DNA from: Methylomarinovum tepidoasis
Lineage (GTDB): Bacteria > Pseudomonadota > Gammaproteobacteria > Methylococcales > Methylothermaceae
Assembly: GCF_030294985.1 (NCBI RefSeq)
Contig: NZ_AP024718.1
Coordinates: 1,627,001-1,691,000, forward strand
Length of the DNA stretch: 64,000 bases
Reading direction: 5' to 3'
In this document: positions 10,959-52,646 of the stretch, piece after piece
Position numbering within the stretch: position 1 is the stretch's first letter
How the letters are laid out: every line of letters starts with the position of its first letter
The notes under the pieces: model-generated
Database searches by the model: none
What the model was told of the DNA's origin: nothing
Seen by the model: the letters and a program-made list of their open reading frames with translations, nothing else
Position numbers and translations under genes: made by a program

Positions 10959-11056
10959 GCCGGGGAGCCGGGTCCGGGGGCGTACTCGGCCCGGACGGCC
11001 GAGTACCGAGCGCCCAGGGATGGATTCACCGCGTCCCCCGGACCCGGCTCCCCGGC
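10959..11056. repeat. Dispersed cloverleaf-like palindromic repeat, copy A
   Basis: A perfect 22-bp inverted repeat (10959-10980 with 11035-11056) encloses a 9-bp hairpin (TACTCGGCC 10983-10991, loop CGGAC, GGCCGAGTA 10997-11005) and a further arm. About 60 bases of the core match copy B at 33097-33190, including GGACGGCCG and AGGGA-GG-TT-AC-GCGT. It fills the fliQ-fliR gap and would form a strong cruciform or RNA structure inside the polycistronic message. It resembles REP-type elements, but family membership is not established. Confidence 0.85.
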
Positions 11057-46028: not shown

Positions 46029-46722
46029 GAGCGACCTGACAGGTGCAAGTCCTGTCCGGCCAAGGCTGGCCACCAGCCGGAACCGAGTGTTGCGTGGTCG
46101 AGGAGTGATCCTGGCTGCGAAGCGTACACAGGGAGCCTGTAGGCTGCGTGATGGAGCCTCGAAAGTACGGAATGCGGAGCCGACGTTGTTGAACGGACGG
46201 AAGGCAACAGGGGTGGTGCTGTACAGGCCTGGCATCATTCCTCCGCCGGGGTCGAAGAGCGGGGCATGCAGGCAAGGGTCGCCCGGGAACCTGGGAGGGC
46301 TCGATCACTCCCTGCGAGGAAGAGCGGTGCGGGCGCCGTGTGAGAAAAGGCCCAGGTCCATCAGATTGGTGTCCGGCTGATGGAAGCGAACAGGACACAA
46401 CTCAGGGTACCGGCGCGCGAAGGCAACCGAGCGCGCTGGGAAGGTGATCGAGCAATCGGAGCCTGCTGATAGTACCTGGGAAGTCGGGGAACCTGCCCCA
46501 AGGGACCCGACGGAGGGAAGCGGCAGGTCGGACGATGGGGCTTTCGGAGGGACAGATGGCCGGGACATCGAGCCAGGAGAACATCTCAACACGACAACGG
46601 AAGCTAGCGGAACTGGCCCGGATCGAACCGAAGCTGGTGTTGACCACGGTTGCCCACTGCCCAAGCCGGACCCGCCCGATCGGCATCCCCACCTTGCCAC
46701 CTTGGAAGACAAGGTACTGCTG
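46029..46722 (+). mobile_element. Group II intron, 5' fragment
   Basis: Starting near GAGCGACCTGACAGGTGCAA the sequence is typical group II intron domain I (the CAAGTCCTGTCCGGC stem, the GAAGCGTACACAGGGAGCC region, GCCGTGTGAGAAAAG) and runs about 500 nt into the start of its maturase gene. The 5' end reads GAGCG where GUGYG is usual. The rest of the maturase and domains V-VI are gone; an IS256 element begins at about 46723. This explains the otherwise gene-free stretch 45964-46555. Confidence 0.82.
46556..46722 (+). pseudogene. Group II intron maturase/reverse transcriptase remnant
   Basis: ATG 46556 with GGAGGGA upstream opens MAGTSSQENISTRQRKLAEL, the LtrA-type N-terminus. After VLTTVAHC about 70 residues are missing; the sequence resumes at PKPD and RPIGIPTL (reverse transcriptase domain 2) with two small frame changes before EDKVL, then meets the IS end. 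It is non-functional. Confidence 0.78.
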
Positions 46723-48034
46723 GAGCTAAATCTGGTGTACGCCATGATCAGGCGGCGCTTCTGCTGTCGTCGGTTCCGCTGTTCACTTCGACTTTCACTC
46801 CGTCCCTGAACTTTACTCCCTCAACGACCTTGGCCAGGTAATTGAATCCACGGATCCGGCGCCAGCGCTTCTCGGCACTCATCCCCAGCTTGTACAACAT
46901 CGCCAGCATGGTGTTCCGGCTCACACATCCCTTGGCCTGATTGCTCCGGTGCCGAATCGTGGCAAAGGTCGACTCGATCGGATTCGTCGTCCGGATGTGC
47001 ACCCAGTGCTCGGCCGGAAAGTCATAGAAGGCCAGCAGGGCCTCCCGGTCCTTCTCCAGACAAGCCACCGCCTTCGGGTACTTGGCCTGGTACGTCTCTA
47101 CGAAATGGTCAAAGGCCTTGTGGGCCGAGGCCCGGTCCTCGGCCATCCAGATCTCCTGCAGGGCCTTCTTCGCCTTGGGCTGAACGGCCTTGGGCAGGTA
47201 GTTCAGCACGTTCGCAGTCTTGTGCACCCAGCAGCGCTGATGACGGGTCTCGGGATACACTTCATCCAGCGCCGCCCGGAAGCCCAGAGCGCCGTCGCCC
47301 ACCGCCAGCTTCGGCGGCACTTCGAGGCCACGCTTCTTCAGGTCCAGCAGCACCTCCCGCCAGCTCTGGGTCGATTCCCGCATGCCATCCTCGATGGCCA
47401 GAAAATGCTTCTCGCCCCGCTCATTGACACCAGGGCGCACAGCCTCTGGCGCTCGGCCCGCAGGCCGCTGCAGATACCGTCCACCCACCAATAGACCCAC
47501 CGGTCCCGGCTCATGTCCCGGTGGCGCCATTCGGCATATTCCGCCTCCCATTGCCGCTTCAAGCGGCCAATCACCGAGGCCGACAACCCTTTCGCCTCGG
47601 GACCGATCAGCACTTCCAAAGCTTCCTGCATCCGGCCGCTCGAGATACCCTTCAGGTACAGCCACGGCAGGGCCGCCTCCACCCGACGGGCCTTCCTCAC
47701 GTAGGGCGGTACCAGCGAGGACCGGAATACCACCGGCTCGCCCGTCCGGCTGCGCACCTTCGGCACCTTCACCGGCACCGGTCCCACGCCGGTCAGAATC
47801 TCCCGCTCCGGCAGGTAGCCGTTGCGGACCACCGCCCGCCGGCCCTGATCGTCGACCTCCCCTTCATACCGCGCCAGCAGCTCGGCCAGCTCCGCCTCGA
47901 TCGCCTGTTGAATCAACTGCCGTGCACCGCGCCTCAGCAGCTCCGTCAGAGGGTCCTCAACTCCCTCTGGCGAGGGTAAGGCAACTACGTTATCTTTGCT
48001 CACCGTTAGGTTGGCGGGAGTAGTTCATTATCTC
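46723..48034 (-). mobile_element. IS256-family insertion sequence, decayed
   Basis: About 1.31 kb, the normal IS256 size. Imperfect terminal inverted repeats lie at 46723-46743 and 48013-48034 (both begin GAG, share TAA and T-rich positions, and end CGCC). Flanks differ (no 8-9 bp target duplication), and they belong to unrelated broken genes: the intron maturase on one side and alkA on the other. The element therefore marks a rearrangement or deletion junction. Confidence 0.8.
46748..48003 (-). pseudogene. IS256-family transposase, frameshifted
   Basis: GTG at 48003 opens the N-terminal half (DPLTELLRRGARQLIQQAIEAEL to WWVDGICSGLRAERQRL, with the first catalytic Asp); near 47425 the frame shifts and the C-terminal half continues from NERGEKHFLAIEDG with VGDGALGF and the DDE-type glutamate in NPIESTFATIRHR. 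Joined length is about 418 aa, the family norm. No slippery heptamer is visible, so I read this as decay rather than programmed shifting. Confidence 0.85.
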
Positions 48035-48340
48035 GAGTGCGGCATCCGCGATACCCACTGGCAGGGACGATCCCTGGCCGACATCCGCCGGGAACTGCTG
48101 CAGCTCACCGGCATCGGCCCCTGGACCCTGGAGATGTTCGCCATCTTCCACCTCCACGAGCCGGACGTCTTCTCCCCCGGCGACATCGGCCTGCAGAAAG
48201 CGGTCGGACAGCTCTATTTCGAGCGCCCCGTACTGCCGCGCCCGGAGCTGGAGGACTTCGCCCGCCGCTGGGCGCCCTTCCGCACCGTCGCCGCCTGGTA
48301 TCTGTGGCGCCATCTGGACCCGGAACCGGTGATCTACTGA
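48035..48340 (+). pseudogene. alkA: DNA-3-methyladenine glycosylase, 3' fragment
   Basis: The frame from the IS edge encodes about 101 C-terminal residues of an AlkA-type base-excision glycosylase: LTGIGPWTLEMFAIFHLHEP (helix-hairpin-helix), DVFSPGDIGLQKAVGQLYF with the catalytic Asp region, and a typical WYLWRHLDPEPVIY end. The N-terminal half is absent, cut at the IS terminal repeat. The DNA-repair domain fragment cannot be functional alone. Confidence 0.82.
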
Positions 48341-48373: not shown

Positions 48374-49438
48374 ATGAAACGCTGGTCGCTGATGTGGCTG
48401 GTTTTACTGGCCGACTGCGGGGAGCAGAAACCGGCGGAATCACTGCCGGAAACCGCCATCGCCGTGACCGTGACGCCTGCCGCCCAAGCCGACCTGGAAA
48501 TCTGGGAGGAAAGCGTCGGCGGCCTGGAGGCCGTCAATGCCCCGCGGCTGGCCGCCGAGGTGGCCGGGCGCATCGTCGCTACCCGCGCCGAGATGGGGGA
48601 CCGGGTGACGCCGGGGCAGACGCTGGCCCGCATCGATTCCGGGGACTACCGCCTTGCCCGGGATCTGGCCCGTGCCGAGATCGCCCGCCTTCAGGCTTTG
48701 CTCAAAGAAGCCCGTCTCAAAGTGCAGCGCCTGCGCCACCTGGTTGGCGCGCAAATCCGCCAACCAGGCGGCCCTGGACGAGGCCGAGGCCCGCTTGGGA
48801 TCGCTGCTGGGGCAGCTGCAGGCGGCCCGGGTGCGCCTGCAGCAGGCCGAGCGCGATCTGGGCAAGACCGTGATTGTCAGCCCGGTAGGTGGCCGGGTCG
48901 ATGCTCGCCACGTCTCGGTGGGCGACTACGTAAAACTGGGTTCACCTCTGTTCGACCTCACCGACCTGACCCGGCTGCGCGCCCGGCTGCCCTATCCTGA
49001 ATCCCTGGCGGGTCGGTTGCGCCCCGGCCTGCCGGTGCGCCTTTCCACCCCCGCCGCGCCGGGGCAGACCGTGGCGGCGGTGGTGACCGATTTGCGCCCC
49101 CGCATCGATCCCGGCAGCCGCGCCGTCGAAATCCGCGTCGATTTCGCCAATTCCGGCGACTGGTGTCCCGGGGCGAGCGTCACCGGAATGTTGCAGGTGG
49201 CGCGCCACGAAAACGCCGTGACGGTGCCGGAGGCGGCGGTGGTGGCCCGTCCCGCCGGCAAGGTGGTGTATGTGATCGAGGACGGCAGGACGGCCGGGCC
49301 AGGCAGCGGGTGGTGCGCACCGGGCTGGTGCGGGGAGGCCGGGTGGAGATCCTCGACGGCCTTGCCGCCGGGGAGCCGGTGGTGGTGGACGGCGCCGGCT
49401 TCCTCACCGACGGGGCGGCGGTGGAGGTGGCCCGGTGA
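48374..49438 (+). pseudogene. RND efflux periplasmic adaptor, two frameshifts
   Basis: Joined across frames it is a membrane-fusion protein of about 355 aa: lipoprotein-like leader (WLVLLADCGEQK), barrel-sandwich part (GRIVATRAEMGDRVTPGQTLARID), a coiled-coil hairpin, VIVSPVGGRVDARHVSVGDYV, and a C-terminal GLVRGGRVEILDGLAAGEPV. One extra base near 48744 and a second indel near 49300 break the frame, and the second restores the original phase. It is coupled to the permease gene. Sequencing error cannot be excluded, but the neighbourhood is full of broken genes. Confidence 0.82.
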
Positions 49439-52400
49439 ACTGGGGCCGTCTGGCCATCCACCGCCACGTTCTCACCTGGATGCTCAACGCCCTGATCGTG
49501 CTGGCGGGCTGGGTGGCTTTCGAGCGCATCGGTGTGGACCGCTATCCCCGGATCGATTTCCCCATGATCTCGGTGACCACGGTGCTGGCCGGAGCCAATC
49601 CGGACATCATCGACGCCAGCATCACCAACGTCGTCGAGAGCGCCGTCAACAGCGTGCCAGGCATCGAGCACGTCCAGTCCGACTCCTTTCCCGGCGCTTC
49701 GGTGGTGCGCATCACCTTCGAGCTGGAAAAGGACATCGATGTGGCCTTCAACGAGGTCCAGGCCAAGGTCAACCAGGTTCTGAGCGAGCTGCCGGACAAC
49801 GCCGAGACCCCGGTGGTAGCCAAGGTGGAATTCGGAGCGGTGCCGATCCTGTGGCTGACCCTGAGCGGTGACCGTACCCTGCAACAGCTCAACCAGTACG
49901 CCCGCCTCCACATCAAGAAGCGCCTGGAGAATGTCGCCGGGGTCGGCGAGGTGCGCATTGGCGGCCGCCGTGAGCGCACCATCCGGGTCCATCTCGACCC
50001 CGCCCGCCTGAGCGCCTACGGTCTCACCGTCGGCGACGTGGTCGCCGCCTTTTCCCGGGAACACTTCCAGCTGCCGGGGGGCTTTTTGGTGGGACGCGAC
50101 CGGGAGCTGCTGATCAAGCTGGACCTGGAATTCCACAAGCCGGCGGAGATCGAGGAACTGATCGTCGCCGCGCGCAACGGCGCGCCGATCCGTATTCGCG
50201 ATATTGCCGCCGTGGAGGATGGCACCGAGGACGCCCGGCGGTTGGCGCGTTTCGGCAAATGTCAGGAAACGGCGGGACGGGAATCTGCGCGCCAGCCCGG
50301 AAATGCTTTCCTGCATTTAGGGCTGGTGCGGCCATCCCTGGCCGCCGGCGCTGCAGATTCCCGTCCCGCCGCCGTGCCTTCGGACTGCCACAGCGTCCCC
50401 GCCGTCGGCCTCGGCATCGTCAAGGTCACCGGTGCCAACGCGGTGGCGGTGATCCAGCAGGTCAAACAGCGCCTCGAGGAGGAAATCCTGCCCCAGCTGC
50501 CGCCGGGGCTGCGGATCGACATCGCCATCGACGATTCGGCCCTGATCCTGGCGCTGGTGGGGGCCCTGGAGGAACATCTGACCCTGGGCACCTTGCTGAC
50601 CGCCCTGGTGGTGTGGCTGTTTCTCAAGAACCTGCGCGCCACCCTGATCATCGCCCTGGCGATCCCGGTGTCGCTGCTGGGGGCGGTGGCGGTGATGTAT
50701 TTCGCCGGCTTCACCTTCAACACCATGACCCTGCTGGGGCTGCTGCTGCTGATCGGCATCGTGGTGGACGACGCCATCGTGGTGCTGGAGAACATCTATC
50801 GCCACCGCGAGGAAGATCCGGGCACCGGTTCTTTTGAGGCGGCCGAAGCCGGCGCCCGCCAGGTGGTGTTCGCGGTGGTGGCGGCGAGCCTGACCCTGGT
50901 GTCCATCTTCGCTTCGGTGCTGTTCATGGGCGGGGTGATCGGCAGTTTCTTCCGTTCTTTCTCGGTGGTGGTGAGCCTGGGGGTGCTGGTGTCCCTGTTC
51001 GTGTCCATCAGCCTCACGCCCATGCTGTGCGCTCGTTATCTGGAGGTGGCGCGCCGCCACGGTCCCCTCTACCTGTGGCTGGAGCGGGGTTTCAGGGCCC
51101 TGGAATCCGGTTACCGGCGGCTGCTGGGATGGACGTTGCGTCACCGGGTGTGGGTGGTGGCGATGGCGGTGATGGCGGTGATGCCGAGCGGCTTCTTCCT
51201 GGGCCAGCTGGGCAAGGGCTTTCTGCCGGAAGAGGACGAAGGCCGTTTTCTCATCAGCTTCAAGGCGCCCCTGGGTTCGAGCCTGCGCTACACCGAAGGG
51301 CGCCTGCGGGAAATGGAAAAGGTGCTGGCCCGCCACCGGGAGATCGCCTCCTGGTTCGCGGTGATCGGCGGCGGGGCCAGCGGCCAAGCCAGCCGCGGCG
51401 ACGTCTTCGTGCGTCTGGTGCCGCGCGAAAAGCGGGACATCCACATGTACCGCCTCATCGACCGCCTGCGCGGCGAGCTGGCGGGAATTCCCGGTCTCCA
51501 GGCCTTCCCCGCGCCCATCCCGCCCCTGGGCGGCCAGTGCGGCGAGTGCTCCAGTTCGTGCTCCAGGGCCCGGACGTGGCGGGCGTGGCCGAACAGAGCC
51601 GGCGCCTGCTACAGGCGTTGCGCCGCCACCCGGAACTGGGGACCATCGACCTCGACCTGCAGCTGGAGCTTCCCCAGCTGCGCCTGCGGGTGGACCGCAC
51701 CCGCGCCCGCCAGCTGGGCCTGCCGGCACGGGAGGTGACCCTGGCGGTCAACGTCCTGGCCGGGGGCCTGGACGTGGCCAAGTTCAACGACGAGCCCGGC
51801 GACGGCGAGCGCTACGACGTCCGTCTCAAGGCCGCCGAGGGAAGCTTCCGCGCCCCGGCCGACCTGCGCCAGATCTTCCTGCGGGCCAGCGGCGGCCGTC
51901 TGGTGCGCCTCGACACCGTGGCCCGCTGGGAGGAAAGGGTGGGGCCGGCGGTGGTGACCCGCTTCGACCTGCGCTATTCCGGCAATTTCTTCGCCACCCC
52001 CAAGGTTTCCGAGGGAGAGGCCGCCGCCATCGTCAAGCAAGTCGCCGCAAGTTCGTTGCCGCGCGGCTACCGGGTGAAGATGATCGGCCGTGCCGAGGAG
52101 TTCGAGAAGACCGCCGGCTACATGCTGTTCGCCCTGGTGGCGGCGGTGGTGCTGGTGTACATGGTGCTGGCCAGCCAGTTCAACGCCTTCCTCCAGCCCC
52201 TGGTCATCATGGCCGCCCAGCCCCTGGCGGTGGTGGGCGGGCTGGCGGGCCTGTGGCTTACCGGCCGCAGCCTCAACATGTTCTCCATGATGGGGCTGGT
52301 GCTGCTCATGGGGCTGGTGGCCAAGAACTCGATCCTGCTGGTGGACCTGACCAATCAGCTGTGCCTCCAGGGCCGCGGCATCGACGAAGCCCTGCGCGAG

Positions 52401-52646
52401 GCCTGCCCGGTGCGCCTCAGACCGGTATTGATGACCTCCCTGACGGTGATCGTCACCATGCTGCCGGCGGTGCTGGGTCTGGGAGCCGCCAGCGACACCG
52501 CCGCCCCCTTGGCGGCGGCGGTGGTGGGCGGCATGGTCAGCTCCACCCTGCTGACCCTGGTGGTGGTGCCGGCGCTGTATTCGCTGCTGGAGCACGGTTT
52601 GCGGCGCTGGCGCAAGGCCGATACGGTTACCGGGGATCGGGGGTGA
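49435..52646 (+). pseudogene. RND-family efflux permease, frameshifted and with a palindromic insertion
   Basis: This is an AcrB/MexF-like inner-membrane pump of about 1,070 codons with twelve spans: N-terminal HVLTWMLNALIVLAGW, porter domains, GIVVDDAIVVLENIYRHRE (proton-relay aspartates), a second half with QFNAFLQPLVIMAAQPLAVV and VAKNSILLVDLTNQL. A one-base loss near 51547 splits it into two frames. About 43-47 foreign codons lie between RRLARF and VPAVGLGI (about 50255-50395), built around a three-stem palindrome. The N-terminal sequence resembles multidrug/solute pumps of unspecified substrate. Confidence 0.85.
50270..50371. repeat. Three-stem palindromic element inside the RND permease
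   Basis: Outer arms of 19 bp pair perfectly (CGGCGGGACGGGAATCTGC 50270-50288 with 50353-50371). Inside are two hairpins: CCAGCCC-GG-AAATGC (50292-50306) with GCATTT-A-GGGCTGG (50313-50326), and GCGGCCA (50328-50334) with TGGCCGC (50339-50345). It differs in sequence from the repeat at 10959 and 33097, though the three-arm layout is similar. TTCGG flanks it at 50251-50255 and 50379-50383. Confidence 0.85.

Follow-up and report, generated by a model that had tools for sequence, protein, structure and literature searches.

A three-stem palindrome carried in frame by an RND permease gene of Methylomarinovum tepidoasis, and its dispersed relatives

The efflux permease locus

The DNA analysed here, called the window, is a stretch of 64,000 nucleotides of the Methylomarinovum tepidoasis genome (NZ_AP024718.1, positions 1,627,001 to 1,691,000; genome designated G000). 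It contains an efflux operon in which an adaptor (membrane fusion) gene at 48374-49447 lies upstream of an RND efflux permease gene. The permease is spread over two open reading frames, the first of which carries a palindromic insert; a second palindrome lies elsewhere in the window.

49435-51738, plus strand: 5' part of the RND efflux permease gene (PF00873, 581 bits), open through the insert, frame lost near 51547
51027-52646, plus strand: open reading frame with the remainder of the permease past the frameshift, collinear with the single 1116-codon frame of the sister species G003
about 50260-50394, plus strand: inserted segment, 135 bp or 45 codons, delimited by the G021 homologue and the break in the MdtB alignment, borders within a few bases
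50270-50288, plus strand: left arm of the outer stem, CGGCGGGACGGGAATCTGC, 19/19 complementary to 50353-50371
50292-50326, plus strand: inner hairpin 1, from the fold and from covariation in subfamily A
50328-50345, plus strand: inner hairpin 2, GCGGCC-ATCCCT-GGCCGC, from the fold and conserved in subfamily A copies
50353-50371, plus strand: right arm of the outer stem, GCAGATTCCCGTCCCGCCG, pairing with the left arm
10959-11056, plus strand: second palindrome of the window, an intergenic element of subfamily B whose core is inverted in G003

An earlier note on this DNA had described a three-stem palindrome that interrupts the permease without closing its frame, and this is borne out, as the frame 49435-51738 runs open through the palindrome. 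About 1.15 kb downstream of the insert, near 51547, a one-base gap with respect to G003 shifts the frame, and the adaptor gene shows frameshifting single-base differences or indels against the same genome, in which the adaptor and permease frames are both open (362 and 1116 codons). The efflux operon of the window strain is probably decaying, or else the sequence contains errors. Because the permease gene of the window is frameshifted, its open frame taken alone is weak evidence of function, and tolerance of the insert as coding sequence is better shown by the lhr gene described below and by G003. Just upstream of the operon, at 46748-48003, lies a transposase gene of the IS256 (mutator) type, which is read in two overlapping frames and has apparently suffered a frameshift; when it was considered as a mobiliser of the palindrome, no convincing terminal repeats for comparison were found in 46500-48300.

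Structure of the palindrome

The palindrome, within 50251-50395, is built on the perfect 19-mer arms listed above, and the 147-nt stretch that contains it folds into an outer stem with two inner hairpins (z of -7.9 as DNA, -7.0 and -7.8 as RNA). The longest perfect arms in the window are 22 bases (10959-10980 with 11035-11056, in the second palindrome) and 19 bases (in the permease), against 15 in 30 dinucleotide-preserving shuffles of the whole window searched at the same spacing. The 19-mer of the permease arm matches exactly nowhere in the genome except at its own two arms, and its nearest other matches have 3 mismatches, equal to a reversed-pattern control. A search for this arm, suggested in the earlier note, thus yields no other exact copy, whereas the inner hairpins do recur elsewhere in the genome, and further matches to the core of the palindrome turn up in its own genome (E value 3e-11) and in a congener (E value 2e-11).

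The insertion site in other species

The proposed comparison with an uninterrupted permease could be made with G021, a genome of the same order whose homologue is 55-63% identical over the two halves of the protein. At the insert site this homologue reads ARHNGEPTVGLGI, with NGE in place of 48 residues in the window protein. Since the G021 homologue lacks the insert residues, the window gene carries 45 extra codons, inside the 43-47 estimated earlier; homology with MdtB likewise breaks at the insert. The TTCGG repeats at 50251-50255 and 50379-50383, described earlier as flanking the element, are not a target duplication: the insert itself contains the second of them, and G003 has kept neither.

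In G003, the permease carries at the same position a different palindrome, of the B type (see below), which adds 44 codons to a gene whose flanks are 93-96% identical to those of the window. The two inserts have no alignable interior and encode unrelated peptides, and they share the ends TGTC and CTGCCACAGCGTC, both missing from the uninterrupted homologue. On these sequences, the shared ends favour an exchange of the interior in place over two insertions.

A second coding site was found in lhr, a helicase gene with WH_Lhr and DEAD_assoc domains, where a B element lies between RLREEIW and VNPEAV in seven of the ten genomes that make up the genus sample, several of them fragmented. The element is forward in G000, G009 and G005, inverted in G003, inverted and degenerate in G006, truncated in G004 and G008, and absent from G001, G002 and G007. 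Every lhr insert is a multiple of three in length and all of the frames are open, while the encoded peptide is wholly different between G000 and G003. In G006, the insert (L285) has been lengthened by tandem CCCTCCCCCCAGCGGGGGGAGGG units to 66 residues, in frame. The AlphaFold model obtained for Lhr was uninformative (mean pLDDT 47). The suggestion that the element can insert as protein-coding sequence therefore stands, with in-frame insertion in two unrelated genes. A special coding ability of the element was considered and rejected, as an open frame arises from composition alone in about 94% of shuffles (93-95%, at least one of six frames). Because open frames are this common by chance, the elements are tolerated in coding sequence, not adapted to it, and their in-gene copies represent the survival of tolerated insertions.

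The main alternative to interior exchange at the permease site, which we regard as possible although the less probable course, is that the two sister species were hit independently at the same target, by an A element in one and a B element in the other, with no exchange in place. The two inserts do belong to different subfamilies and cannot be aligned in their interiors, and insertion hot spots are conceivable given that YPAL, a palindromic repeat of Yersinia, is reported to prefer dyad-symmetric targets (PMC2229807). Independent hits would nevertheless have to reproduce the same ends, at the same codon, that the uninterrupted homologue lacks, and lhr displays a single resident insertion diversifying in place.

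Two subfamilies of dispersed elements

The elements share a three-way-junction architecture, with two inner hairpins on a 16-23-bp outer stem, and fall into two subfamilies. A covariance model of subfamily A, built from 15 copies, finds 11 strong copies in the 2.44-Mb window genome and many in congeners. The permease copy is a divergent member, scoring 92 bits where the remaining strong copies reach 113-150. The subfamily A structure is supported by covariation, with 16 of 35 pairs changing on both sides compared with 5.1 in shuffles. The strict A-core DNA pattern was found in Methylothermaceae only, in a one-genome-per-species collection that possibly leaves out the window genome and those near it. 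Subfamily B has about 35 copies in the window genome and about 25 in G003, and 32 of the 369 gammaproteobacterial genomes sampled contain its core pattern, the reversed control having no match in the genomes listed. G016, a 5.1-Mb genome of the same order, holds about 380 copies of the B core pattern, far above the window genus.

The two palindromes of the window had been described as unrelated in sequence. They are probably distant relatives, as a search with the A model also retrieves B copies, read on the opposite strand, with E values of about 1e-5. Subfamilies A and B are probably distant branches of one superfamily, a placement that for A draws on weak sequence similarity and shared architecture.

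Some elements occur in company. An A and a B element lie about 80 bp apart at L153 (1560-1800) and L193 (4330-4570), with order and orientation kept in both sister species, and B elements are paired within 100 bp at L172 and L178. In G003, the L178 pair is represented by a single hybrid element, as if recombined between the two. A gene for a small exported protein has, at L182 (1545-1651) and L218, a B element either shortly before its N-terminal region or inside it.

Many elements of the window genome have no full counterpart at the collinear position in G003, where the site is either clean or retains one arm or part of the core; this contrast of filled and empty sites attests to gain or loss. 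The clean empty sites carry neither arm, so the arms belong to the mobile unit; copying of the outer arms from the target at insertion was rejected on the same observation. Direct repeats are visible at two clean sites, TCAGT (5 bp) at one and about 5-6 bp at another, and are shorter or ill-defined at others. The earlier proposal of a small non-autonomous mobile element is thus upheld by the dispersed copies, the filled and empty sites of the sister species and the short direct repeats. Mobilisation would presumably be the work of a transposase.

By gene positions taken from a simple coding-potential script, almost every copy is located no more than about 50 bp from a gene end, and two lie inside conserved genes (the permease and lhr). 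This placement would suit the reading that the elements act at gene ends as functional RNA or termination structures, with stems kept by selection on the RNA and the in-gene copies mere strays. Further points in its favour are the strong stems on both strands, the sub-threshold matches of A copies to the TwoAYGGAY RNA, and the influence that MITEs and YPAL are said to have on upstream mRNA (PMC2229807, PMC10969869). We consider it unlikely, however, as the presence of copies differs between sister species, the palindromes are kept in the in-gene lhr copies too, and no intergenic conservation was seen outside the element.

Inversion and co-evolution of the arms

The outer stem of subfamily B is about 23 bp long and differs in sequence in almost every one of the 35 copies compared. 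Its 23 positions are nonetheless Watson-Crick paired in 19-35 of the 35 copies, and in at least 25 at nearly all positions, against mostly 9-17 expected from column composition; pairing drops to chance at position 25. At 26 sites filled in both G000 and G003 with collinear flanks, the core is inverted in six, all of them B elements and the second palindrome of the window (10959-11056) among them. Arm changes were counted in orthologous element pairs of the same orientation, leaving out the inverted pairs, whose totals contain two cross-matches within L179/L212. The 328 arm positions comprise 270 unchanged, 29 changed on one side, 25 changed on both sides with pairing kept, and four with non-compensatory double changes. 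At the flank divergence of about 4-9%, independent change would yield an estimated two or so double changes.

Template switching between inverted-repeat arms is known in yeast to homogenise the arms and to invert the spacer, in coding genes included (PMC8604942), and a process of this type best accounts for the inversions and the arm co-evolution together. Selection for pairing could account for the compensatory arm changes, but not for the inversions.

Inversion could alternatively be the work of a dedicated recombinase, or of excision and re-insertion by a transposase. Slight arm differences in lhr appear to have flipped along with the core, as expected when a whole unit inverts; double-hop template switching, however, can also flip the arms with the spacer. 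No site-specific recombination sites or enzyme were found, and the homogenised arms and partial deletions fit replication errors, which leaves us with little expectation that such enzymes are responsible. A chance palindrome or ordinary linker divergence, to which GC-rich DNA that readily forms stems and a decaying host gene might lend themselves, is already refuted by the recurring copies of the core at the E values given above, and with an arm longer than in any shuffle and an insert missing from the homologue its probability is negligible.

A proposed history of the element

Taken together, we judge it highly probable that the palindrome belongs to a dispersed family of non-autonomous mobile repeats resembling YPAL, which can lodge in genes in frame and are later changed by template switching. 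Entry into the permease gene, by this element or by an earlier one at that position, probably predates the divergence of G000 and G003. The insertion point is an N-G-x position, which in solved permeases is occupied by a short link, and the insert would have survived because its length was divisible by three and it brought in no stop codon. Once resident, elements would change not by single-base substitutions but through DNA events at the palindrome. A switch of template from one arm to the other would keep the arms complementary while their sequence drifts and would sometimes invert the interior, and deletions would give rise to truncated copies or stubs. In a coding gene, a single event of this kind could swap about 35-45 residues.

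We give even weight, for and against, to the broader proposition that a gammaproteobacterial palindromic family with hypervariable, self-complementary stems rewrites about 35-45 residues per event in conserved genes while the frame has stayed open for the age of the genus. If true, this would be a natural and recurrent source of new peptide loops, produced by flipping or by exchange of the interior in place. Wholesale peptide replacement becomes measurable in a conserved helicase (Lhr) and an efflux permease, and the share of template switching, relative to point mutation, in writing bacterial coding sequence becomes testable. Pairs of sister genomes reveal palindromes flipping, arms co-evolving and copies being lost.

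Comparison with known repeat families

The closest known relative is YPAL/RU-2, the Yersinia palindromic sequence of 168 bp whose sequence is in print (PMC2759123). The B core scores 53 against the YPAL/RU-2 core, with a shuffle mean of 16.6 and a maximum of 27, and on this sequence comparison the two cores are homologous, which connects the Yersinia repeats with a family spread across the Gammaproteobacteria. The resemblance of subfamily A is only distant: its consensus scores 31 against YPAL on the opposite strand (shuffle maximum 30), weak at the sequence level, and the window permease copy scores 30 on that strand (shuffle maximum 31). Like B, YPAL/RU-2 has internal inverted repeats, a mostly intergenic position near gene ends and occasional gene fusions (PMC2759123, PMC2229807), and the filled and empty sites of the sister species match its pattern. 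It is described as mobile, with short target duplications of variable size, 3-26 bp, and without TA ends (PMC2229807), to which the direct repeats at two clean sites here may correspond. The elements described here differ from it in being about 105-135 bp long, in having an outer stem that varies in nearly every copy and in flipping in place. They also show the features of MITEs, being small, non-coding, palindromic, dispersed and variably present.

Similarities to other systems are more partial. REP/BIME and ERIC sequences are likewise dispersed intergenic palindromes, sometimes paired, but they differ in size and architecture, and the core found here matches YPAL instead. The TwoAYGGAY RNA (RF01731) also consists of two hairpins with similar loops and matches several A copies weakly. 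These weak matches fall for the most part on A copies, and most other copies go unmatched; membership was rejected, as the window copy scores 29.8 bits and the best A copy 31.5 against a gathering cut-off of 43. Template-switch (quasipalindrome) mutagenesis shares with these elements the homogenisation of arms and inversion of spacers, in coding genes too (PMC8604942), but the yeast spacer inversions are substitutions of 2-5 bp, whereas here a core of roughly 60 bp flips together with its hairpins.

Within genes, the nearest parallel is the Rickettsia palindromic elements (RPE), palindromic repeats of about 100-150 bp that lie in frame within protein genes (PMC2229807, PMC10969869). As in RPE, insertion in conserved protein genes is in frame at both the permease and lhr. 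By description, RPE have a conserved reading frame and many coding insertions, whereas the elements described here were seen at only two coding sites, vary in peptide and flip in orientation; a conserved encoded peptide was not found, the G000 and G003 insert peptides being unrelated in both genes. The elements of this genus are a variant of YPAL-like repeats that behaves in genes like the Rickettsia palindromic elements, and what is less expected is their flipping and swapping inside conserved genes.
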